Positions 9,181 to 38,151 of a DNA stretch of 64,000 bases are shown here, one piece after another; the stretch's first letter is position 1; the number at the start of each line of letters is the position of its first letter. Source of the DNA: Cohnella cholangitidis (GTDB taxonomy: Bacteria > Bacillota > Bacilli > Paenibacillales > Paenibacillaceae); the NCBI RefSeq assembly GCF_014107495.1, contig NZ_CP041969.1:3955501-4019500 (forward strand), written 5' to 3'. The notes beneath the pieces are model-generated. The model saw nothing but the letters and a program-made list of their open reading frames with translations, was not told the DNA's origin and made no database searches. The position numbers and the translations under genes are program-made.

Positions 9181-9339
9181 CGTTAGGCGGTGGTGCCGGG
9201 GCGTGCTGCCAACGATTTAATCAAATGATTGGATGGATTTAAGAAATGGATAATATCCCGTTTAGGGCGAATTTAGAATGACCCTTTATGATGAAATCTG
9301 TTAGCACGATTCACAATAAACGAAGGAGTGACTCACCTC

Positions 9340-10971: not shown

Positions 10972-11110
10972 AAAAACTATCGAAATCGTGACCTGGATTC
11001 ACAAAATGGAAAGGGTTATAATTTTGAATTAAACCCTAGCCATGTTGTGGATTTTTTATTCGTATGAATAAAAAAGTTCATGAGGCAATAGAAGTTGGAG
11101 GTGAATTTAA

Positions 11111-11311
11111 ATGCAAACAGGTACAGTGAAATGGTTCAATGCAGACAAAGGCTTCGGTTTCATCGAGGTTGAAGGCGGTAACGACGTATTCGTGCACTTC
11201 AGCGCGATCACGGGTGAAGGCTTCAAAACTTTGGACGAAGGACAACGCGTTCAATTCAACGTGGTACAAGGCAACCGCGGACCACAAGCGGAGAACGTTG
11301 TTAAACTGTAA
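11111..11311 (+). CDS. csp: Cold-shock protein (CspA/CspB family)
   Basis: This 66-residue single cold-shock domain is an RNA chaperone that binds single-stranded nucleic acid in the cytoplasm. RNP1 (KGFGFI, residues 13-18) and RNP2 (VFVHF, residues 26-30) are intact, with aromatic residues W8, F15, F17, F27 and F30. GGAGGTG precedes the ATG. The gene has its own promoter, long leader and terminator. A YdjO-like gene follows at once, a pairing that fits a shared cold response. Confidence 0.97.
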
Positions 11312-11320
11312 ATCCAGTGT

Positions 11321-11358
11321 AAAAATGCCCTTAACGGTTAGTTAAGGGCATTTTTTTT
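11321..11358 (+). terminator. Intrinsic terminator of csp
   Basis: A 15-bp perfect stem AAAAATGCCCTTAAC / GTTAAGGGCATTTTT continues into a run of T. Confidence 0.92.
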
Positions 11359-11388
11359 GGTTATGCTAATGGAAAAGGGGGCTCGTCC

Positions 11389-11619
11389 ATGTACTCACGG
11401 AAAAAAGTGTTCGAAGAAATTCCTGAAGAAATGACGGCAATCTGGTCCTGTACGAGTGATGATTGCAACGGGTGGATGAGAGACAATTTCGCTTTCGAAA
11501 CAGCGCCCACCTGCGGGCTCTGCCACCAGCCGATGAAGAGCGGCATGAAGATGCTGCCGCAGCTAGTGAATACAAGCCGGGATCAGAAATCCTCTCGTAA
11601 AGGCGTATCAATCGGATAA
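11389..11619 (+). CDS. YdjO-like cold-inducible zinc-ribbon protein
   Basis: This 76-residue protein has four cysteines (C21, C26, C42, C45: WSCTSDDC and TCGLC) arranged as a small zinc ribbon. It resembles the YdjO family of Bacillus, described as cold-inducible and of unknown function. GAAAAGGGGG precedes the ATG. Its position directly after csp supports a cold-stress role. It has its own terminator. Confidence 0.75.
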   Translation: MYSRKKVFEEIPEEMTAIWSCTSDDCNGWMRDNFAFETAPTCGLCHQPMKSGMKMLPQLVNTSRDQKSSRKGVSIG

Positions 11620-11636
11620 CCAAACATATTTGTAGA

Positions 11637-11668
11637 AGAGCACCGCGAGAGGTGCTCTTTTTCTTTTT
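11637..11668 (+). terminator. Intrinsic terminator
   Basis: The stem AGAGCACC / GGTGCTCT with loop GCGAGA is followed by TTTTTCTTTTTT. Confidence 0.9.
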
Positions 11669-11851
11669 TATATATGTCATATTAAGTTACATAATCCGCG
11701 CATTTATGAAAACGCTTAACGTCATTTGGGGAAAGGGGGAAAACGTTTCCTGTATTTAATAAGACGTTGATAAAACAGGGATTGAGATGCGTTATCCTTA
11801 ATGAAAACAGTTGAAAAACGAGGGGGTTAAGGTGAAGTAGCTATTGAATTA

Positions 11852-11868
11852 TGTTAGAATTTATGACA
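11852..11868 (+). promoter_or_regulatory. TnrA/GlnR-type operator upstream of nirB
   Basis: TGTTAGAATTTATGACA matches the consensus TGTNA-N7-TNACA at every defined position. A plausible -10 (TATTAC, 11899-11904) would place transcription start near 11910, so the box centre is at about -50, the position from which TnrA activates promoters in Bacillus under nitrogen limitation. Whether this organism uses TnrA, GlnR or both cannot be seen. The rest of the 325-base gap (11620-11944) holds the preceding terminator and AT-rich sequence. Confidence 0.8.
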
Positions 11869-11944
11869 TAATTTAAGTCGTAGAACGATATTAATTCCTA
11901 TTACATGACAATTTGTGTTAGATAATAGGTTGGGGGCTGCTGAC

Positions 11945-14353
11945 ATGAAGAAGAAACTTGTACTAGTAGGTAACGGAATGGCGGGGGTTAGTTGTATCGA
12001 ACAATTGCTGAAGCTTGCTCCGAACCGTTACGACATTACGATATTCGGCAGCGAGCCGCATCCTAACTATAACCGCATTTTGTTATCCTCCGTACTCGCG
12101 GGCGATGCCGATATGAAGGACATCGTCATTAACGATTGGTCATGGTACGAGGAAAATCATATTACGCTGCATACCGGGCAAACGGTAACCCATATCGACA
12201 AAGATCGGAAGCTGGTCCGCACGGACGGTGGAATTAGCGTTCCTTACGACGAGCTGATCATCGCGACGGGCTCATTGCCGTTTATGCTCCCGCTTCCGGG
12301 CGCGGACAAGGAAGGCGTGATCGCCTTCCGCGACATTAAAGACTGCGAAACCATGATAGCTACGGCTAAAAAATATAAAAAAGCGATCGTCATCGGAGGA
12401 GGGCTGCTTGGCTTGGAAGCGGCTCGCGGATTGCTTAACCTCAACATGGAAGTATCCGTCGTCCATATCCATCCTTATTTAATGGATCGACAATTGGACC
12501 AACCGGCGTCCTTGATGCTGCAACGCGAGCTAGAGGGGCAAGGAATGAAGTTCCTGCTCTCCAAGAACACGGAATCGATTCTCGGCAGGAAGCGCGTTAC
12601 GGGCTTGCGATTTACGGACGGCTCGGAAGAGGCGGCGGATCTGGTCGTCATGGCGGTCGGCATTCGGCCGAATGCCGCGCTGGCCAAGACCAGCGGGATC
12701 GAGTGCAATCGCGGAATCGTCGCTAACGACTTTATGGAAACGGACGTTCCGAATATTTACTCCATCGGAGAGTGCGCGGAACATCGCGGGATTTCGTACG
12801 GCTTGGTCGCTCCTCTGTATGAACAGGGGGCTGTCCTTGCGAAACGTCTAGCCGGCGTGGACACGCAAGGGTACCAAGGCTCGGTCGTCTCGACCAAGCT
12901 CAAGGTGTCGGGAGTTAACGTATTCTCGGCGGGGCAATTCAAAGACAGCTCGGATACGCGCGCCGTACGGCTCCAGGACGAACTGGACGGCGTCTATAAG
13001 AAAGTCGTGATCCGGGACGGCAAGGTCATCGGGGCCGTACTGTTCGGGGACACGGCAGACGGGTCGCGATTGTTCGCGATGATCCGCAGCGGAGAGGACG
13101 TAACGGGCAAAGAGAAGGAAGTGCTTCTCGGAGCGAGCGCCGGCGGTTCCGCGAAGTCGGGCGTAGACCTTGTAGCGGCGATGAGCGACGACGAAATCGT
13201 CTGCGGCTGCAACGGGGTCAGCAAAGCCGGCATCGTGCAAGCGATCAAGGAAAAAGGCTGCACAAGCGTCAACGAAATCAAGGCGTGCACGAAAGCTTCC
13301 GGTTCTTGCGGCGGCTGTAAGCCGCTCGTAGCCGACGTGCTCGCTTACGTGCTTGGCGCTGACGGCGTGACAAGCGTTAAAGAAGGCATTTGCGGTTGTA
13401 CGGCATTGGGACGCGATGAAGTAGTCGAGGCCATTAAAAGGTTGCATTTGACGACCTCCAAGGAAGTCATGAACGTTCTGGAATGGAACAATCCCGAAGG
13501 GTGCTCCAAGTGCCGGCCGGCCGTCAACTACTACCTCGGCATGGTATGGCCGGAGGAGCATGAGGACGAGAGAGAGTCGAGATTCGTTAACGAGCGCAAT
13601 CACGCGAATATCCAGAAGGACGGCACGTACTCCGTCGTGCCTAGGATGTACGGCGGCGTGACGACGCCTAAGGATTTGATGAAAATCGCGGAAATCGCGG
13701 ATAAATACGAAGTTCCGCTTGTGAAGATGACCGGCGGGCAACGAATCGATTTGCTTGGAGTCAAGAAGGAGCACCTGCCGGCGATGTGGGCGGATTTGGA
13801 TATGCCTTCGGGTTACGCGTACGGTAAATCCCTCCGCACCGTGAAGACTTGCGTCGGCTCCACGTTCTGCAGGTTCGGAACCCAAGACGCGATGGGCATG
13901 GGGATCAAGCTGGAGAAGAAATTCGAACGATTGAATACGCCGGCTAAAGTCAAAATGGCCGTATCCGGATGCCCGAGGAATTGCGCGGAAGCGACGATTA
14001 AAGATTTCGGCATTATCGCGATCGACGGCGGCTGGGAGTTGCATGTCGGAGGTAACGGAGGAACGAAGCTGCGGGGAACGGACCTCCTCTGCAAAGTCAA
14101 AACGGAAGAAGAAGTTCTTGAATGGTCCGGCGCATATCTCCAATATTATCGGGAAACGGGCAAATATAACGAACGGACTGCCGAGTGGCTAGAACGTCTC
14201 GGCTTGGATACGATCAAAGCGGCGTTGGAAAAGCCAGAGGATCGGATCGCCTTGAACGAACGAATCGATAAGACGTTAGGGCTCATGAAAGACCCTTGGA
14301 AAGAAATCATCGAAGAGAAGAAGCTGAACGAAACCTTCGTACCTTTAACTTAA
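11945..14353 (+). CDS. nirB: Assimilatory nitrite reductase [NAD(P)H], large subunit
   Basis: This enzyme reduces nitrite to ammonium with NAD(P)H in the cytoplasm (802 residues; NasD in Bacillus). In order it shows an FAD motif (VGNGMAG, 8-14), an NAD(P)H motif (VIGGGLLGLEAARG), a BFD-type [2Fe-2S] domain (CGCNG at 420, ACTKASGSCGGC), a second BFD-like domain (ICGCTALG...GCSKCRP), then the nitrite/sulfite reductase half domain. The siroheme-[4Fe-4S] cysteines 636, 642, 676 and 680 (TCVGSTFC; SGCPRNC) are intact. The ATG at 11945 gives the family start MKKKLVLVGNG. No NirD/NasE small subunit gene is adjacent, which is unusual. A TnrA-type box precedes it and an ANTAR-type leader follows. Confidence 0.95.
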   Translation: MKKKLVLVGNGMAGVSCIEQLLKLAPNRYDITIFGSEPHPNYNRILLSSVLAGDADMKDIVINDWSWYEENHITLHTGQTVTHIDKDRKLVRTDGGISVPYDELIIATGSLPFMLPLPGADKEGVIAFRDIKDCETMIATAKKYKKAIVIGGGLLGLEAARGLLNLNMEVSVVHIHPYLMDRQLDQPASLMLQRELEGQGMKFLLSKNTESILGRKRVTGLRFTDGSEEAADLVVMAVGIRPNAALAKTSGIECNRGIVANDFMETDVPNIYSIGECAEHRGISYGLVAPLYEQGAVLAKRLAGVDTQGYQGSVVSTKLKVSGVNVFSAGQFKDSSDTRAVRLQDELDGVYKKVVIRDGKVIGAVLFGDTADGSRLFAMIRSGEDVTGKEKEVLLGASAGGSAKSGVDLVAAMSDDEIVCGCNGVSKAGIVQAIKEKGCTSVNEIKACTKASGSCGGCKPLVADVLAYVLGADGVTSVKEGICGCTALGRDEVVEAIKRLHLTTSKEVMNVLEWNNPEGCSKCRPAVNYYLGMVWPEEHEDERESRFVNERNHANIQKDGTYSVVPRMYGGVTTPKDLMKIAEIADKYEVPLVKMTGGQRIDLLGVKKEHLPAMWADLDMPSGYAYGKSLRTVKTCVGSTFCRFGTQDAMGMGIKLEKKFERLNTPAKVKMAVSGCPRNCAEATIKDFGIIAIDGGWELHVGGNGGTKLRGTDLLCKVKTEEEVLEWSGAYLQYYRETGKYNERTAEWLERLGLDTIKAALEKPEDRIALNERIDKTLGLMKDPWKEIIEEKKLNETFVPLT

Positions 14354-14371
14354 TCGTTCGTATGACGGTTA

Positions 14372-14482
14372 CCAGAGAGACAAAGAAGTCTCCTATGGAA
14401 TCGAATAGCCAGCATATCGGCTAATGAATGAGACAACGGAGTCTCTAAGCAGTGCTAGGACTTCGTTGTCTCATTTTGATTC
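14372..14482 (+). ncRNA. ANTAR-target antitermination element (two hexaloops plus terminator)
   Basis: Hairpin P1 is GAGAC-AAAGAA-GTCTC (14377-14392), with an outer CCA/TGG helix. Hairpin P2 is GAGAC-AACGGA-GTCTC (14430-14445). Both loops have six bases with A at position 1 and G at position 4, the known signature recognised by ANTAR-domain antiterminators (NasR, EutV). A small helix (TAGCC/GGCTA, 14406-14423) lies between them. The 5' half of P2 is also the 5' half of a 16-bp terminator stem (14428-14443 with 14459-14474) followed by TTTTGATT, so P2 and the terminator exclude each other. The element lies in the nirB-narK gap and should gate the nitrate genes. The ANTAR protein is not in this window. 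Confidence 0.8.
14428..14482 (+). terminator. Regulated terminator between nirB and narK
   Basis: The stem ATGAGACAACGGAGTC pairs with GACTTCGTTGTCTCAT (one G-T pair), loop of 15 bases, followed by TTTTGATT. It overlaps the P2 hexaloop hairpin and so is the likely attenuation site of the ANTAR-type switch. Confidence 0.8.
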
Positions 14483-14497
14483 GTAAGGAGCTGTAAC

Positions 14498-15676
14498 ATG
14501 GTCAAATCAACCTCTACGCAAATACTCGTCTTTTCCACCCTCGCCATGACGGCATCCTTTATGATCTGGAGCTTGTTCGCGCCTCTTGCAGGAAGCATCC
14601 AAGAAATGCTTCATCTGTCGACGCTTCAGAAGAGCGTGTTGATAGCAACCCCCGTCTTGCTCGGATCGATAATGCGAATCCCAATGGGAATATATACAGA
14701 CCGCTTAGGCGGCAGAAAAATGTTCGTAGGAACGATGCTGTTTCTGGTGCTTCCTCTTCTGGCGGCGGGATGGGTCAAAAGCTATCCTCTTTTGCTGCTA
14801 TGCGCTTTATTCATCGGGATGGCCGGTACAACGTTCGCGATATCCTTAACCTATGTTTCCAGGTGGTTTTCCGCGGACAAACAGGGTTTCGTGTTAGGTC
14901 TCGCGGGACTCGGCAATCTCGGAACGGCCGCTTCCAGCTATCTGATGCCCGTTATATACGGTAAGTTCGGCTATCAATGGGTGTTCTGGAGCATGGCTTG
15001 CATGATCGTCGTTACGGCCCTCGTATTCTGGTTCGGAACATCGGAATTGCCGAAGCCCAGCCAAGCCAAAACCTTCAAACAAGCGATGTCCGTAGTCAAG
15101 GAGAAGCCGACCCGGTATTTATCCTTGTTCTATTTTCTAACCTTCGGGGGCTTTGTGGCCTTTAGCGTCTACTTACCGACTTTGCTGAAAGAGCTGTTCG
15201 ATAGAAGCACGGAGGATGCGGGCATTCAGACGGCCGCATTCGTGCTTCTGGCGACTTTGATTCGACCGCTCGGCGGCTATTTGGCGGACAAAATCGGATC
15301 GCAGAAAGTATTGGACGCCGTTTTTGCGGGAATTGCGGTCGCGGCGCTGCTGATCGCGGTTTCCGTTCATCATGACGTGCCCTTCATGATCGTGTGCTTG
15401 TTTCTCGGGGGGTTATTGGGTATAGGGAACGGTGCCGTGTTCAAAATGGTTCCCGAGGTTTCTACCGGGAATACGGGCGCGGTTACGGGAATCGTAGGCG
15501 CTGCCGGGGGCGTCGGCGGATTTTTTCCTCCGATCGTCTTGGGAATCGTTCAGCAGCAGACGGGCGGTTTTGCCTTAGGGTTCGTGTTCATGGCTATTTT
15601 CGCGGGAGTCTGCTTATGGGGCAATCGGGTTACGCGTGCGATGCAGGCATCTAAGCGGATGGCCGTAACGAGCTAG
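14498..15676 (+). CDS. narK: Nitrate/nitrite transporter (NarK/NasA family MFS)
   Basis: This 392-residue major facilitator protein has about 12 membrane segments and imports nitrate. Glycine-rich nitrate signature segments are visible (GLAGLGNLGTAASSYLMP and VGAAGGVGGFFPPIVLG), with an MFS loop (GIYTDRLGGRKMF) and conserved arginines in the early helices (GSIMRIPMG, LIRPLGGYLADKIG). AAGGAG precedes the ATG. It lies directly behind the ANTAR-type antitermination element, so its expression, and that of nasB and nasC downstream, probably depends on read-through when nitrate or nitrite is sensed. Confidence 0.93.
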   Translation: MVKSTSTQILVFSTLAMTASFMIWSLFAPLAGSIQEMLHLSTLQKSVLIATPVLLGSIMRIPMGIYTDRLGGRKMFVGTMLFLVLPLLAAGWVKSYPLLLLCALFIGMAGTTFAISLTYVSRWFSADKQGFVLGLAGLGNLGTAASSYLMPVIYGKFGYQWVFWSMACMIVVTALVFWFGTSELPKPSQAKTFKQAMSVVKEKPTRYLSLFYFLTFGGFVAFSVYLPTLLKELFDRSTEDAGIQTAAFVLLATLIRPLGGYLADKIGSQKVLDAVFAGIAVAALLIAVSVHHDVPFMIVCLFLGGLLGIGNGAVFKMVPEVSTGNTGAVTGIVGAAGGVGGFFPPIVLGIVQQQTGGFALGFVFMAIFAGVCLWGNRVTRAMQASKRMAVTS

Positions 15677-15744
15677 AAGCGGTCGGCGCAGGGAGAACTT
15701 AGTTTCGAGGGAAGCGGGAATGGATCCGGGGAGGGCGTAGGCTT

Positions 15745-18093
15745 ATGGGAAAACAAAAACTGGTGCTGATCGGCAACGGGATGGCTGGAGTCAGGTGTAT
15801 CGAGGAGATTATTAAGCAGGAGCCGGATGCTTTCGAAATTACGATTTTCGGCGGCGAACCTCATCCGAACTATAACCGAATCATGCTTTCCAAGGTGCTG
15901 CAGGGCGATACGCAGATTAAAGATATAACGATCAATGATTGGCAGTGGTACAAAGACAATGGAATTACGCTCTACACGGGCGATCCGGTCGTTCAGATCC
16001 ATACGGGCGAACGCGTCGTTACTAGCAGCAAGGGGGTAACCGCGCGGTACGATAAGCTTATTCTGGCTACCGGTTCTTTGCCTTTCATGCTTCCGTTGCC
16101 GGGGGCGGACTTGCCGGGAGTGACCGCGTTCCGCGATATTAACGATTGCAATACGATGCTGGAAGCATCGCGTAAATATAAGAAAGCTATCGTCATCGGC
16201 GGCGGGCTGCTCGGGATCGAGGCTGCGCGGGGGTTGCTTAATCTCGGAATGGAAGTCGACGTCGTGCACATCTACCACCACATCATGGAACGGCAATTGG
16301 ATGCGGACGCGGCGGAGATGCTCAAGAAGGATCTGGAGAAGCAAGGGATGAAATTCCTGCTGGGCAAGCACACGGAGAAAATTTTAGGCAAAAAAAGAGT
16401 GGAAGGCTTGCAGTTCAAAGACGGTACGAAGGCGCTGGCGGATCTGATCGTCATTGCCGTCGGCGTTCGGCCGAATATTAAGCTGGCTGCGGAAAGCGGC
16501 ATTGAAGTTAACCGGGCGATCGTCGTCAATGACCGAATGGAAACGAATATCCCCAACGTCTATGCTGTCGGAGAATGCGCGGAGCACCGCGGGATGGTAT
16601 ACGGATTGGTTGCGCCTCTCTATGAGCAAGGGAAAGTGCTCGCGAAAACGATCTGCGGAACCGAGACGGAGGGTTATCAGGGCTCCATTCTGTATTCGCA
16701 GCTAAAAGTGTCCGGAGTGGAAGTGTTCTCTGCAGGCGAGATCCGGGATTCCGAAGTGGAAGCTACGTTCAAAATACACGACGGCATTCGCAACAAGTAT
16801 AAGAAGGTAACCGTCCGGGACAATCGCGTCGTTGGCGCGGTATTGTTCGGAGACAGCAGCGAAGGCAACAAGCTTCTCGGATATATCAAGCAGGGCGCGG
16901 ACGTCTCGGTATTGGATCAACAAGCAGGAGGCGGGGCGGATGCGGAGGATGAAGCGATATGCGCCATGTCCGACAAGGAAACGGTGTGTTCCTGCAACGG
17001 CGTAACGAAAGGGGCGATCGTGTCGGCGATTCGCGGCGACAAGCTCGAAACCTTCGAGGAAGTCAGGGAATGCACGAGGGCATCCAGCTCCTGCGGCGGT
17101 TGTAAACCTCTCGTGTCCGCTATTCTTCGGGTAACGTTAGCGAGCGGCGAGGAAGGCGAGGTAGAGAAGAAGACGATTTGCGCGTGCGCGGACTACAGTC
17201 ACGACGAGCTGAAGGAAGCTATCGGACGGCAACGGTTCGGCACGGCTGAAGAAGCGCGTAGACTGCTTGGGTGGAAGGAGGAAGCGGGCTGCTCTGCGTG
17301 CCGTCCTGTAATGAGCTACTATTTGGGCGCTTTGAACGGCGATTCCGATCAATTTGCGGTTGCGCCGTTCGCCGATGGAACGTATTCCATCGTACCCCGA
17401 TTGCATGGGGGGCTGGCCAAGGCAGCGCAATTGCGGCAGATCGCGAGCGTTATGGATAAATACGAAGTTCCGCAAGCGAAGCTCGGGCATGACCGGCTTG
17501 AGCTGTTCGGGATTTCCGATGACAAGCTGGCGGAAGCGGTATCGGAACTGGCCATGCCCGTAGCTTTGGCAAGCTACGGGCATCCCGTGACGGTAACCTC
17601 TTGCGAAGGAATGAAATACGATCCGCTCGCTTTGCGGGATTCGATCGGCATGGCGATCGCTCTGGAACGGCGGTTAGAAGGCTTGCAGATGCCTGCTCCG
17701 TTAACGATCGCCGTATCCGGGAGCCCGTTGCATCGCGCGGGGACGCTTGCCAAGGACATCGGCATCGTCGGAGTTCCCGGGGGCTGGGAAATCTACGTCG
17801 GAGGCAACGCGGGACGATCGCTTCGTCAGGCACAGCTGCTCAGTATCGAGACGATGGACCGGGCGGCGCTGGAACTGGCGGCGGCGTTCCTGCAAGCCTA
17901 CCGCGAACTAGCCTATTACGGCGAAACGACATGGGATTGGATTGATCGGGCAGGGCTCGTGGCGCTGAGGGAAAGATTGTTCAACCGGGCGGAACGCGCC
18001 GGATTCATGGAGCGATTGGATTCGGACAGGGAAATCAGCTTATCCAGATCAATACAACGGCGGCCGGCGGCTGCCTGGGGGCGGGTGAATTAA
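15745..18093 (+). CDS. nasB: Assimilatory nitrate reductase electron-transfer subunit (NasB-like)
   Basis: This 782-residue protein is a paralogue of the nirB product: FAD motif (IGNGMAG), NADH motif (VIGGGLLGIEAARG), two BFD-type [2Fe-2S] domains (VCSCNG, CTRASSSCGGC; ICACAD, GCSACRP) and a nitrite-reductase-like tail. In that tail three of four siroheme-cluster cysteines are lost: CEGMKYD replaces CVGSTFC, and SGSPLHR replaces SGCPRNC. It therefore cannot hold siroheme and most likely passes electrons from NADH to NasC, as NasB does in Bacillus. Its stop abuts the nasC ATG, which supports a two-subunit enzyme. Confidence 0.88.
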   Translation: MGKQKLVLIGNGMAGVRCIEEIIKQEPDAFEITIFGGEPHPNYNRIMLSKVLQGDTQIKDITINDWQWYKDNGITLYTGDPVVQIHTGERVVTSSKGVTARYDKLILATGSLPFMLPLPGADLPGVTAFRDINDCNTMLEASRKYKKAIVIGGGLLGIEAARGLLNLGMEVDVVHIYHHIMERQLDADAAEMLKKDLEKQGMKFLLGKHTEKILGKKRVEGLQFKDGTKALADLIVIAVGVRPNIKLAAESGIEVNRAIVVNDRMETNIPNVYAVGECAEHRGMVYGLVAPLYEQGKVLAKTICGTETEGYQGSILYSQLKVSGVEVFSAGEIRDSEVEATFKIHDGIRNKYKKVTVRDNRVVGAVLFGDSSEGNKLLGYIKQGADVSVLDQQAGGGADAEDEAICAMSDKETVCSCNGVTKGAIVSAIRGDKLETFEEVRECTRASSSCGGCKPLVSAILRVTLASGEEGEVEKKTICACADYSHDELKEAIGRQRFGTAEEARRLLGWKEEAGCSACRPVMSYYLGALNGDSDQFAVAPFADGTYSIVPRLHGGLAKAAQLRQIASVMDKYEVPQAKLGHDRLELFGISDDKLAEAVSELAMPVALASYGHPVTVTSCEGMKYDPLALRDSIGMAIALERRLEGLQMPAPLTIAVSGSPLHRAGTLAKDIGIVGVPGGWEIYVGGNAGRSLRQAQLLSIETMDRAALELAAAFLQAYRELAYYGETTWDWIDRAGLVALRERLFNRAERAGFMERLDSDREISLSRSIQRRPAAAWGRVN

Positions 18094-20211
18094 ATGGAGA
18101 GCAACGTTAAAGCGCTTGAGCCGCAAGGGACGTCGGTATTCGATACGCAGTGTCCATTCTGCAGCGTTCAGTGCAAAATGCAAGTAGTCGAGGAAAGGAA
18201 TCGCGCGCAAGTAAGCTATACGGTTATCCCGAAGCCGAACGCCGCATCGGAAGGCCGCCTGTGCATCAAAGGCATGAACGCTTATCAGCATGCTTTGACC
18301 GCCGAGCGCATTCTGCATCCGATGGCGAAGGTAGACGGACAGTTCGTGCAAATCTCCTGGGAAGAAGCCTACCGGCGGATCATTCATAAATTCACGGAGC
18401 TTCGCAACCGTTACAGCTACGATTCGATCGGAGTTTACGGAGGCGGATCTTTAACGAACGAGACGGCTTACTTGCTCGGTAAATTTGCAAGGGTTGCCTT
18501 GCAAACCAAATATATCGATTACAACGGCCGATTTTGCATGTCCGCGGCCGCTTCCGCGGGCAACAAAACGTTCGGCATGGACCGCGGCTTGACGAATCCG
18601 CTGTCCGACATTCCTCTGGCCAAATGCATCATCCTCGCCGGAACGAATATCGCGGAATGCCAGCCTACGTTGATGCCGTATTTCACCAGGGCGAAGGAGA
18701 ACGGGGCGTACGTCATCGTCATCGATCCTCGGGAGACGGGAACGACGGCGATCGCCGATTTGCATTTGAAGGTCATGCCGGGAATGGACGCCGCGCTTGC
18801 GAACGGCTTGCAGAAAGTTCTGCTCGAGGAAGGGTTGCTGGATAAGGAGTTTCTGTCCGATCGCACGGCAGGGTTCGAGAAGCTGAAATCCCACTTGCAG
18901 CAATTGGATCTTAACGAGATTGCGGAATTAACGGGCGTATCCGTCGAAGACATCCGCAAAGCTGCCATTGCGTATGGTAAGGCGGCAACCGGAATGGTAT
19001 TCACGGCACGTGGGGTCGAGCAGCAGACGGACGGCTATATGGCGGTAAGAAGCTTCTTGAATCTCGTGCTGATGACCGGCAAGATCGGCAAGCCCGGATC
19101 GGGTTACGGGGCGGTAACGGGCCAAGGCAACGGGCAAGGCGGCAGAGAACATGGGCAGAAAGCCGATCAACTGCCGGGTTATCGAATGATCGACAATCCG
19201 GAACATCGGGCCTACGTGGCCGGAGTGTGGGGGATCGATCCGAGTACTTTGCCCGGGAAGGGCGTCTCTGCGTACGAGATGATGGAGAAGGTTCACGCCG
19301 AAGAGATTCGCGCGCTGATCATAATGGGATCCAACCCTATCGTGTCCAACCCGAACGCTAACTTCGTGGAAGAAGGGTTGAAGAAGCTGGATTATCTCGT
19401 CGTCGCGGATATGTTCCTATCGGAAACGGCGCAGTTGGCCGATCTTATTCTTCCCGTCTCCGCGTACATCGAGAATGAAGGAACGCTGACGAATATGGAA
19501 GGCCGCGTTCTATTGCGGGAAGCTAATCGTCCGGTGCCAGGGGAAGCTAAACATGATTGGCAAATTCTATGCGACATCGCGGAAGGGTTGGGGAAAGGGG
19601 AATACTTCGGCTTCCGTTCCGCGGAGTCGATCTTTAACGAACTGCGCTTAGCAAGCAAAGGCGGCATTGCCGATTATTACGGCATTACCTACGATCGGCT
19701 TCGCGAAGAAGAAGGCGTCTACTGGCCTTGTCCGTCTGCGGCGCATAAGAGTACGGGGCGCATATTCGAGGCCGAATTCGCGCATCCGGGCGGCAAGGCG
19801 GAAATCGTAAGCGTGGATAATCATTTGCCGGATGAACCGACGGACGAGCAATATCCGCTCATTCTGACGACGGGGCGCGCGCTGACTCATTATTTAACGG
19901 GCGTGCAGACGCGCAGAAGCCATTCCCTCGCCGCAAGGGATTTCGAATCCTATATGGAAATTCATCCCCGCACGGCCCGGAAGCAAGGGATTAAAGACGC
20001 CTCCTTGGTTCGGTTGCAATCGAGAAGGGGAGATATCGTCGTCCGCAGCCGATATCGGGCCGACATTCGGGAGGATACCGTGTTCGTGCCGATGCACTGG
20101 GGAGATATTCAGAACGTGAACAAGATCACGAATCCCGCTTTGGATCCGACCTGCCGCATGCCGGGCTTCAAGTCTTGCGCGGTTAACGTTGTATCGCTTT
20201 TCCCGCAATGA
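18094..20211 (+). CDS. nasC: Assimilatory nitrate reductase catalytic subunit
   Basis: This 705-residue molybdenum enzyme reduces nitrate to nitrite in the cytoplasm. The N-terminal [4Fe-4S] cysteines are 20, 23, 27 and 57 (CPFCSVQC; LCIKG). The molybdenum ligand is probably C148 in NGRFCMSAAASAG. The Moco body includes GQGNGQGGREHGQKADQLPGYR, typical of NasA/NasC/NapA enzymes, and a C-terminal dinucleotide-binding domain begins near PLILTTGRALTHYLTGVQTR. There is no TAT signal. The ATG begins directly after the nasB stop. The locus lacks nearby molybdenum cofactor and siroheme synthesis genes. Confidence 0.93.
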   Translation: MESNVKALEPQGTSVFDTQCPFCSVQCKMQVVEERNRAQVSYTVIPKPNAASEGRLCIKGMNAYQHALTAERILHPMAKVDGQFVQISWEEAYRRIIHKFTELRNRYSYDSIGVYGGGSLTNETAYLLGKFARVALQTKYIDYNGRFCMSAAASAGNKTFGMDRGLTNPLSDIPLAKCIILAGTNIAECQPTLMPYFTRAKENGAYVIVIDPRETGTTAIADLHLKVMPGMDAALANGLQKVLLEEGLLDKEFLSDRTAGFEKLKSHLQQLDLNEIAELTGVSVEDIRKAAIAYGKAATGMVFTARGVEQQTDGYMAVRSFLNLVLMTGKIGKPGSGYGAVTGQGNGQGGREHGQKADQLPGYRMIDNPEHRAYVAGVWGIDPSTLPGKGVSAYEMMEKVHAEEIRALIIMGSNPIVSNPNANFVEEGLKKLDYLVVADMFLSETAQLADLILPVSAYIENEGTLTNMEGRVLLREANRPVPGEAKHDWQILCDIAEGLGKGEYFGFRSAESIFNELRLASKGGIADYYGITYDRLREEEGVYWPCPSAAHKSTGRIFEAEFAHPGGKAEIVSVDNHLPDEPTDEQYPLILTTGRALTHYLTGVQTRRSHSLAARDFESYMEIHPRTARKQGIKDASLVRLQSRRGDIVVRSRYRADIREDTVFVPMHWGDIQNVNKITNPALDPTCRMPGFKSCAVNVVSLFPQ

Positions 20212-20235
20212 ACTCATAAACGCCATTAAATCAAG

Positions 20236-20260
20236 AAACTCGACCCGGTCGAGTTTTTTT
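20236..20260 (+). terminator. Intrinsic terminator of the nitrate operon
   Basis: The perfect 9-bp stem AAACTCGAC / GTCGAGTTT with loop CCG is followed by more T. Confidence 0.93.
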
Positions 20261-20376
20261 GCGTTTTTATTCCATGACCGCCTTGATGACTGCGGTAACT
20301 GGTCATATTACGTGACGGAGATATACGATAAACGGAGAGTTGAAACCTATCTACGCCGGAAGAGGGAGAGAGCTTA

Positions 20377-21633
20377 ATGGGCAATGCGTACGACATCATT
20401 GTGGTTGGGGCAAGAGTAGCCGGCTCCACGTTAGCTTACTTATTGGCCAAGGAAGGATACAAGGTGCTTCTGCTGGATCGCGGAACGTTTCCGAGCGATA
20501 CGCTGTCCACCCACAACATGTACAGCAATTCGTTAGGCATGCTTCGCGGGTTAGGCATATTGGATGCCGTGCTGGAGACGGCGACTCCGCTTTATCGCAG
20601 AGCGCGAGTGGACTTCGATGGAGCGATTATCGACGGGATTTTTCCGGAATCGGACGGTTTGCAGGGCTGTTTGTGCGTTCGTCGCAAATATTTGGACACG
20701 ATCCTGTTCGACAATGCCAAAGCTGAGCCCGGGGTAACGGCGATCGAAGGCTTTCGCGTGACCTCGTTGATCGTAGAGAACGGAATCGTTAAGGGAGTAG
20801 AAGGGAAACGCAAGGATGGCGATGGAGAGGTCGAAAGGTTTACGGCTCATCTCGTCGCGGGCGCGGACGGCAGATTGTCCAAGGTCAGGGAATGGGCGGG
20901 AAGCGAGCGGAAAATCGTCGTGCCGACGGATTTCGCTTCTTATGTCGCTTACGTTACGAACTTCGAGCAAGCGGGGGAAATCCATGTCGAGTTTTACAAG
21001 AGCAAGGATAAGCTGGCGATCGTATTTCCGACGAGCGACAATCAATACGTGCTCGGAGTGATGTTCCCGCTTACCGACAACGCGTGGATGGCAAGATTCA
21101 AGGCTAGTCCGGAAGCAGGTATACGCGACCTCATCGACGAAGGATTCGCTCACACGACTTTAGCGGACCGGTTTAGGAAAGCCGAGTTTGCGCCATCGGA
21201 GTCCGTCAAGGGCCTGCACGGTTACGATAACGATTGGTTCGTCGGCATGGGCCGAGGCTGGGCGTTGCTTGGGGACGCGCTGTCGTTCAAGGATCCCGCG
21301 GTCGGCCAAGGAATGCACGACGCCTTATATGGAGCGCACATGCTGGCCGAAATCCTGTCGCAATACGCAGCTCAAGATTGGCAGGACAATTGGGAGTCAA
21401 TGGGCGCGGTGTATCAATCGGCCATGGAAGCCAAACTCATGTCCCGCTTCTGGATGGGCTGCCAGTTTACGAAGAACGTGCCGGTTCCTCCGGAAGTGAC
21501 GGCCGCGTACCATCTCGTAGGGCAAGATGCCCAAGCCACGGAAGTGTTCCTAGGCGTCTATAACTACGTGAGCGAACCGGAACATCTTCATGAAGAAATC
21601 GGAAGATTGATCAACCGGGTTGGATCGGCTTAA
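20377..21633 (+). CDS. FAD-dependent oxidoreductase (group A monooxygenase/geranylgeranyl reductase-like)
   Basis: This 418-residue flavoprotein has an N-terminal dinucleotide motif (VVGARVAGSTLA, residues 9-20), a DG-type motif (AGADGRLSKVREWAG) and the second FAD motif (LLGDALSFKDPAVGQGMHDAL, near residues 297-317). These are the three landmarks of the p-hydroxybenzoate hydroxylase fold used by aromatic hydroxylases and geranylgeranyl reductases. A glycine that is usual at position 2 of the first motif is replaced by alanine. It lies after a strong terminator, so it is probably separate from the nitrate operon. The substrate is unknown. Confidence 0.85.
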   Translation: MGNAYDIIVVGARVAGSTLAYLLAKEGYKVLLLDRGTFPSDTLSTHNMYSNSLGMLRGLGILDAVLETATPLYRRARVDFDGAIIDGIFPESDGLQGCLCVRRKYLDTILFDNAKAEPGVTAIEGFRVTSLIVENGIVKGVEGKRKDGDGEVERFTAHLVAGADGRLSKVREWAGSERKIVVPTDFASYVAYVTNFEQAGEIHVEFYKSKDKLAIVFPTSDNQYVLGVMFPLTDNAWMARFKASPEAGIRDLIDEGFAHTTLADRFRKAEFAPSESVKGLHGYDNDWFVGMGRGWALLGDALSFKDPAVGQGMHDALYGAHMLAEILSQYAAQDWQDNWESMGAVYQSAMEAKLMSRFWMGCQFTKNVPVPPEVTAAYHLVGQDAQATEVFLGVYNYVSEPEHLHEEIGRLINRVGSA

Positions 21634-37707: not shown

Positions 37708-38151
37708 GCCCCCTTTACCTGGTCAACATATTGGACGACCCCCGCGGACGAGTCCGACGGGGGTCTTAATATTGAAGCGCAACCGCGCGATTCTTCCTGA
37801 TTCACTTTCACGAAAACAACGATAGCCCTACCTCTCCATCGTTCTTGCGGCTCCGTGGCCGCGCCAGTGAGAATTCGTGTTTCCTTCCAGCAGCCGATTC
37901 TTTGATCTTAATAAGGAATGTGTGGTAAAACGGAGGAATATTACCCTTTAATATGAGGAAAATCTGAGGGTCACAACTTCTTTAAGATATTATTATAATT
38001 CTTCGGTTGGTAATTGTCAATAGATTGTCAAATTTTATGCATTGACCGGAGGAGCAAGGGAGCCTGATATCGAAAACTAATGAAGAAGTCATTTTGAACC
38101 GATGAACATGAAGAAGGATTTTCAATAATCATCAGAGCAGGTGTTAAGCCA
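37708..38151. other. Long intergenic region with a GC-rich hairpin
   Basis: This 444-base gap holds no convincing gene. A strong hairpin (GACCCCCG...CGGGGGTC with inner GGAC/GTCC, 37738-37766) lies close upstream of the AraC gene. A perfect TATAAT at 37994-37999, with a poor -35 (TCACAA at 17 bases), and a tandem TTGTCA at 38014 and 38025 may belong to the promoter of the DoxX-like gene at 38152. The segment around 37970-38040 is AT-rich. Confidence 0.45.

Follow-up and report, generated by a model that had tools for sequence, protein, structure and literature searches.

Targets of ANTAR proteins were defined in 2012 as a pair of hairpins, each of 3 bp or more, whose six-base loops carry A in position 1 and G in position 4 (A1/G4 hexaloops), with a linker of variable length and an overlapping terminator (PMC3369931); this and the following comparisons draw on parts of the papers cited. 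In Enterococcus faecalis, the leaders recognized by EutV (eutP and other eut leaders) carry two such hairpins, of which the second, P2, is excluded by the terminator, and the sequence of the closing pairs matters there as well (PMC3369931, PMC8934654). The linkers of these leaders span 5-12 nt; one of 14 nt, or an addition of 20 nt, cripples or abolishes antitermination by EutV (PMC3369931, PMC8934654). In the nasF leader of Klebsiella oxytoca, a hexaloop element with a terminator serves nitrate assimilation genes together with the ANTAR protein NasR, which has a nitrate-sensing NIT domain (PMC3369931, PMC3795266), whereas the NasS-NasT system, acting at nasA leaders in Paracoccus and nirBD leaders in Pseudomonas, relies on an ANTAR protein without NIT domain for antitermination of nirBD and nas genes (PMC3795266, PMC12830290). 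Antitermination of nirBD by NasT has already been described (PMC12830290), and the targets of the 2012 survey include nitrite reductase and nitrate transporters (PMC3369931). Among the literature matches listed, a scope that leaves the tables of that survey outside, none describes an ANTAR nitrate regulon of Paenibacillaceae.

The locus considered here carries two A1/G4 hexaloop hairpins, the second in conflict with a terminator, among genes of nitrate assimilation, and the genome encodes an ANTAR protein, ANTAR1, beside related genes. From the EutV targets the element differs in its linker (37 nt versus 5-12 nt) and in lying inside an operon, after the first gene, while ANTAR1 differs from EutV in having neither a Pfam receiver match nor a conserved phospho-acceptor. 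NasR has a NIT domain, whereas Pfam reports only the ANTAR domain for ANTAR1, and the switch of nasF lies in a 5' leader rather than inside an operon. Unlike NasT, ANTAR1 has no adjacent NasS-like gene, most of the relatives viewed having a TrpD-like neighbor instead; in AmiR-AmiC of Pseudomonas aeruginosa the target is the amidase operon, and no AmiC-like partner is seen by eye beside ANTAR1. The mechanism is known from other bacteria, in the targets of EutV, NasR and NasT; what is unusual here is the spacing of the hairpins and their position. Judged by its sequence, the element belongs to the class as defined in 2012, and by the spacing need of eutP it would not. The nirB1-narK1 gap is probably an ANTAR1-controlled transcription attenuator inside the operon, gating narK1-nasB-nasC.

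The element between nirB1 and narK1

The window (the whole stretch of DNA analysed, 64,000 nucleotides, C1:3955501-4019500 of a 6.4 Mb genome) contains nirB1, narK1, nasB and nasC in this order and all on the plus strand, with 144 bases between the first two (Table 1). The name nasB is taken from the earlier sequence-only reading and from the position of the gene; narK1 scores 249 bits against TIGR00886, under that model's cut-off of 311.7. A NirD query against positions 11001-20500 of the window gives only matches with E 5-9, leaving nirB1 without a following nirD, and a search of the nirB1-narK1 gap for a nirD remnant found none. Upstream of nirB1, where the sequence-only reading had named a TnrA box, there are in fact two perfect boxes of the form TGTNAN7TNACA, which we take to be the GlnR/TnrA-type consensus; the window has three perfect boxes in all where 0.38 would be expected, and these are two of them. 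Promoter-like matches (7) are about as numerous as in shuffles (6.2), and the promoter scan found none in the nirB1-narK1 gap; in the nirB1 leader (11620-11944), no stem of at least 4 bp carries an A1/G4 hexaloop.

Table 1. Features of the nitrate operon and of the nirB1-narK1 gap, in window coordinates.
Feature	Position	Strand	Basis or remark
GlnR/TnrA-type box TGTCATATTAAGTTACA	11675..11691	+	perfect match to TGTNAN7TNACA
Second GlnR/TnrA-type box	11852..11868	+	perfect; overlaps weak promoter-like match 11844-11872
nirB1, NADH nitrite reductase large subunit	11945..14353	+	TIGR02374, 1068 bits
Predicted junction preceding synthesis of the terminator arm	14356..14429	+	MFE = centroid, prediction only
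P1, GAGAC-AAAGAA-GTCTC, candidate ANTAR recruitment hairpin	14377..14392	+	direct reading
P1-P2 linker, 37 nt	14393..14429	+	direct reading; folding
Intrinsic-terminator-like hairpin, short U-tract	14426..14477	+	-30.3 kcal/mol
P2, GAGAC-AACGGA-GTCTC, candidate antiterminator hairpin	14430..14445	+	direct reading
Shine-Dalgarno-like AAGGAG of narK1	14485..14490	+	by eye; lies outside the terminator hairpin
narK1, nitrate/nitrite transporter, first gene past the switch	14498..15676	+	TIGR00886, MFS_1
nasB, NirB-like, presumed electron-transfer subunit of nitrate reductase	15745..18093	+	TIGR02374, 821 bits
nasC, assimilatory nitrate reductase catalytic subunit	18094..20211	+	NF047855, 1208 bits, cut-off 1100
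Terminator-like hairpin 3' of nasC	20233..20259	+	terminator scan

Direct reading of the gap confirms two GAGAC/GTCTC hairpins with A1/G4 hexaloops, as had been claimed from the sequence. In P1 the stem arms 14377-14381 and 14388-14392 enclose the loop AAAGAA (14382-14387), and in P2 the arms 14430-14434 and 14441-14445 enclose AACGGA (14435-14440); both loops have A in position 1 and G in position 4, both fit the form AANGRN, and both hairpins are AC/GU-closed. P1 and P2 are identical in 14 of their 16 bases, and their loops lie 53 nt apart.

The terminator hairpin pairs 14426-14443 with 14459-14476; its stem, previously given as 16 bp, is real and slightly longer, with 18 outer pairs including G-U. 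The tract UUUUGAUU starts at 14474, its first three U lying inside the stem, and the U-tract is short and partly paired; a simple terminator scan misses this hairpin, the loop limit of the scan being 8 nt. Because the terminator takes the whole 5' arm of P2, the two are mutually exclusive, and the predicted folds bear out the claim that they cannot coexist: when growing prefixes of the RNA are folded, P2 is part of the minimum-energy structure from 14446 to 14458, and the terminator hairpin replaces it from 14464. The exclusion that marks an antitermination-type target is predicted here, with a U-tract that is short. Folding of the region 14340-14500 gives z = -5.3, with 0 of 200 shuffles equally stable.

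Before the terminator arm is synthesized, the RNA is predicted to form a junction (-28.8 kcal/mol; z -3.2, a stability matched by none of 200 shuffles), composed of an outer helix (14356-14361/14424-14429), a stem that bears P1 (14366-14403) and a middle hairpin (14406-14423). The linker bases left unpaired in this prediction are 14393-14395, 14404-14405 and the loop of the middle hairpin, and P2 begins at the base that immediately follows the predicted outer helix. No Rfam family reaches its gathering score at the element; a loose threshold gives miRNA-like, plastid and RybB-like matches, which are rejected as chance because they lie far under their gathering scores.

ANTAR1 and the leader elements of relatives

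The sequence-only reading had called for a search of the genome for ANTAR-domain proteins. Two exceed the Pfam cut-off, and one of them, ANTAR1, stands in a nitrate locus with canonical dual-hexaloop leaders: its gene, 4 kb outside the window, is oriented divergently from nirB2 and precedes narK2, and the leaders of both these genes carry dual hexaloops. The locus also has GlnR/TnrA-type boxes, 3 against 0.08 expected, located between the ANTAR1 and nirB2 genes and ahead of narK2. ANTAR1 matches Pfam ANTAR with 68.8 bits, with no other Pfam domain reported, a fused NIT domain included; the nearest solved structure of its ANTAR domain by sequence is EutV (E 3.4e-10), and it keeps 10 of 11 EutV RNA-contact residues, counted over those named in the parts of the literature used. 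Its N-terminus is modelled as receiver-like. No NasS-like gene lies beside it; the genome encodes six NMT1_2 proteins, the closest about 130 kb away.

Within the genus, loci around ANTAR1-like genes were compared in 20 genomes (the genome studied here and 19 of the 21 others with the gene, G153 and G159 being left out), and in every one the ANTAR gene adjoins a divergent nirB. A first scan of these loci, which asked only for A1/G4 hexaloops and a terminator, yields an element in 16 of 20 nirB leaders and 3 of 4 narK2 leaders, along with a handful of probable chance pairs at other places in these loci; both loops are AANGRN in 16/16 of the nirB-leader elements, although A in position 2 and R in position 5 were not demanded. 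Under a looser rule, fitted after the sequences had been viewed (AANG in P1, (A/G)ANG and GGC/GCC in P2), the element is present in 20/20 nirB and 4/4 narK2 leaders, with loops 21-25 nt apart where the rule allowed 19-27. Since this rule demands both, the invariance of the loops and of P2 in the alignment of 24 leaders is partly built in, and rests instead on the first scan and on the distinct matches in the family.

Covariation is seen in P1. Over the 24 leaders, cells in which both partners of a pair have changed number 24 against 7.0 in shuffles, and paired cells amount to 97.7% against 88.2%, each value reached in 0 of 500 shuffles. Double changes touch 4 of the 6 pairs, a count reached by 194 of 500 shuffles and not beyond chance; the two inner pairs of P1 and the three of P2 are invariant and uninformative alone. 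A model built from the 24 leaders, with the window element excluded (hereafter R1), finds only the nirB2 and narK2 leaders as strong matches in the genome; as these two helped to build it, they show that there is no other close copy and are not independent finds. Of the remaining matches in the genome (14-20 bits), the best, L081, is antisense inside a long open frame, and the rest are taken as chance. Of the 37 genus genomes, 22 have both an R1 element and ANTAR1 and 15 have neither, a co-occurrence in which element and gene are often neighbors and 20 of the 22 genomes served to build the model.

In the family, R1 matches occur in 74 of 118 genomes sampled, 8 of the 74 having been used in building R1. 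Of 50 matching loci viewed, the 30 best (three from R1-building genomes) all have the element before nirB with a divergent ANTAR gene, while in 20 chosen by hand it precedes nirB in 3, narK in 4, nasB in 8, another gene followed by nasB in 4 and no recognized gene in 1; in one locus, L137, the gene preceding nasB resembles moeA by eye. The presence of the element at nirB, narK and nasB across these loci indicates that ANTAR regulons of nitrate genes are widespread in the family. Over 46 distinct family matches, in an alignment fitted to the structure, double-changed cells of P1 number 74 against 23.2 and paired cells reach 97.8% against 83.5% (each 0 of 500 shuffles); P1 is closed by AC/GU in 46/46, and P2 by GGC/GCC in 45/45 of the rows with letters there. 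Among 55 R1 matches, position 2 of the P1 loop is A in 55/55 and position 5 is R in 51/55; in the P2 loop, position 1 is A in 52/54, position 2 is A in 50/54 and position 5 is R in 50/54. The P2 loop starts with G in 2 of the 24 leaders, the nirB2 leader of this genome among them; in otherwise canonical elements this loop is GACGAA (L006:6407-6452, which is that leader, and L062:9278-9323).

The nitrate ANTAR gene is followed in 46 of the 50 loci by a gene for a TrpD-like phosphoribosyltransferase (Pfam Glycos_transf_3), or in 43 of 47 genomes, three of them being counted twice in the former figure. Examples lie in L063-L078 and L106-L135 (for instance L068:7245-8288:-), and the ANTAR stop overlaps the start of the TrpD-like gene in at least seven loci. 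The neighbor is missing beside ANTAR1 in this genome and in the three closest relatives (L006, L060, L061, L062); the sole TrpD-similar protein of the genome is 31% identical and is encoded elsewhere. The TrpD-like protein could be the missing sensor partner of the nitrate ANTAR protein.

Origin, spacing and competing explanations

The sequence-only reading had proposed an alignment of nirB-narK gaps from relatives, and the outcome is divided: the hexaloops are kept at nirB, narK and nasB leaders in the genus and family, and the pair of the gap has no counterpart at the other narK1 orthologs. The orthologs were collected from 394 family genomes at E <= 1e-120, and the scan covered some 320 bases before each narK1; none of the 23 other loci has a hexaloop pair 17-60 nt apart, and a further relative, L059, found by scanning genome contigs with NarK1, has no hexaloop upstream of narK. 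Some of the 23 loci do have isolated A1/G4 hexaloops upstream, L016 two of them about 100 nt apart. Within the stretch searched, nirB-nirD stands directly upstream in 16 of the 23, nirB without nirD in L020 and neither in 6, so that the window element, which finds no covarying counterpart among these orthologs, occupies the place of nirD in a nirB-nirD-narK order. In a close relative, G063, nirB1 leads straight into nasB, with neither narK1 nor the switch. Given the lack of the pair at all 23 orthologs, the usual nirB-nirD-narK order and the arrangement in G063, this lineage probably evolved or acquired the switch itself. Its position inside the operon, after the first gene, and its long spacer are unusual.

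The absence of a counterpart in relatives would suit an ordinary intercistronic terminator, or a processing or stability hairpin that lowers expression of narK1-nasB-nasC below that of nirB1, in which case the hexaloops would be coincidental or stem from a chance 16-bp duplication; the terminator hairpin is very stable, and 14 shared bases of 16 are what a duplication would leave. Against this stands the chance test, in which 12 Mb of first-order Markov sequence of the window's composition was scanned for pairs of perfect 5-bp stems with A1/G4 hexaloops whose loops lie 17-60 nt apart: two such pairs occur there, and exactly one, P1/P2, in the window on both strands. With both loops AANGRN, a form picked after the relatives had been viewed, no pair occurs in the 12 Mb, and the combination of two 5-bp stems, AANGRN loops and a P2 within the terminator arm is very unlikely by chance. 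In this genome, moreover, an ANTAR/hexaloop system accompanies genes of this type, and we consider the ordinary hairpin unlikely.

The window element is the best R1 match in the window, at 12.7 bits and E 0.27, and fits with P2 only, which is read as a P1. Its P1 has the AC/GU closing of R1, but P2 is closed by GAC/GUC, not GGC/GCC, and the loops are 53 nt apart rather than 21-25; for these reasons and its low score it is not filed as an R1 copy. Since lengthening destroys antitermination by EutV, the 37-nt linker is the main argument against function. It lends itself to the view that this is a drifting or half-formed ANTAR element, with a spacer too long for antitermination, that acts as a constant attenuator; the closing pairs of P2 depart from those of the family, and the P2 loop of the nirB2 leader also deviates, with G in position 1. 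Decay, however, would hardly leave both stems perfect and both loops in form, and the linker, 37 nt in sequence, is predicted to be folded (z -3.2). There are also two AC/GU-closed AANGRN hexaloops with loops 31-35 nt apart in the narK2 leaders of six sister species (L177, L183, L189, L191, L201 and L202, in each near 1500), pairs that are absent from the R1 matches. All six lie divergent from an R1 element, and wherever nasB was found (five loci) that element stands before it; changes in the P2 stem preserve pairing in L183 (CGATAC/GTATCG) and L191, and a clear terminator is seen in L191 only. We regard a drifting element as quite improbable.

These leaders came from a looser pattern of two AC-AANGRN-GT stretches with 14-44 bases between them. 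In the genome it matches once, at the window element; the reversed control also matches once, so that there is no second copy, and this single match is not proof of rarity. Over the 37 genus genomes the pattern is not enriched, with 49 matches against 122 for the reversed control, and only the six matches positioned at narK2 are informative; a seventh, in G152, adjoins an R1 element.

The genome's other ANTAR protein, ANTAR2, combines receiver and ANTAR domains; it is an EutV-like response regulator that adjoins a histidine kinase and eut-like genes. Its neighborhood (L105:13525-18784) contains the histidine kinase and genes that resemble eutA, eutB and eutC by eye; a hexaloop scan of the eut-like region under a strict terminator rule gave no targets, which says little. 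With this protein encoded in the same genome, the element might answer to ANTAR2 and link nitrate uptake to ethanolamine use; the genes behind it are nitrate genes, however, its loops match those of ANTAR1-associated elements, and it is ANTAR1 that adjoins nirB2 and narK2, which leaves control by ANTAR2 a very slim prospect. That the two 16-bp palindromes, 53 bp or about five helical turns apart, are DNA operators of a dimeric regulator, as their identical half-sites and variable spacer and the 13 genomic occurrences of GAGAC-N6-GTCTC (reversed control pattern: 1) might suggest, is scarcely credible: of the 11 occurrences elsewhere, 10 fall within stop-free frames at least 300 bases long, no sign of an operator, the gap has no promoter-like match, and the palindrome 'spacers' fit the form of RNA loops.

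Attenuation of narK1-nasB-nasC as proposed

In the proposed attenuator under ANTAR1 control, RNA polymerase would start upstream of nirB1, at the region with the two GlnR/TnrA-type boxes, and transcribe nirB1. By default, the nascent RNA would form the 14426-14476 hairpin, and most polymerases would halt before narK1. An active ANTAR1 dimer would be recruited by P1 and stabilize P2; the stabilized P2 would deny the terminator its 5' arm, and narK1-nasB-nasC would be transcribed. The computed basis of this proposal comprises the hairpins, their predicted exclusion and their rarity, an ANTAR1 with RNA-contact residues, and canonical sister elements that covary in relatives; we infer from it that ANTAR1 binds the element and that termination is efficient. 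Nitrate or nitrite would be the inducer. The R1-type elements of relatives precede nirB, narK and nasB, the same functions as in the window operon.

The ANTAR interpretation put forward earlier is favored by ANTAR1, the sister elements and the AANGRN loops, and is weighed down by the 23 narK1 loci without the pair, the 37-nt linker and the short U-tract. Expression of nirB1 under nitrogen limitation, with narK1-nasB-nasC also needing an ANTAR protein, fits the parts, and the gap may keep transporter and reductase off when nitrate is absent. The further idea that the switch follows nirB so that detoxification precedes nitrate import is possible and finds no support here; the argument is weakened because nirB2 carries an ANTAR-type leader of its own.

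Nitrate genes with an ANTAR-type element are nothing exceptional in the family, and the searches outline an ANTAR nitrate regulon across it. If functional, the window element would probe how strict the spacing of ANTAR targets is, the rule being broken in sequence and perhaps not in three dimensions; it would bear on the handover of one dimer from P1 to P2, and it would split a nitrate operon into a first gene and an ANTAR-gated remainder. Taken together, though only tentatively, the observations would be compatible with a separate type of ANTAR target that has a folded three-way junction in place of the short linker and two P1-like (AC/GU-closed) hairpins; with gating in mid-operon, nirB1 responding to nitrogen limitation alone and narK1-nasB-nasC also to the inducer; and with a family-wide nitrate ANTAR protein that has neither NIT domain nor adjacent NasS, for which the TrpD-like neighbor is maybe the sensor.

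Two observations concern other parts of the window. The third perfect TGTNAN7TNACA box (9299-9315, +) lies just upstream of a gene at 9328 that looks S-layer-like by eye, and positions 37806-37893 (+) match the BsrC sRNA of Rfam with 68.4 bits, the gathering score being 38.
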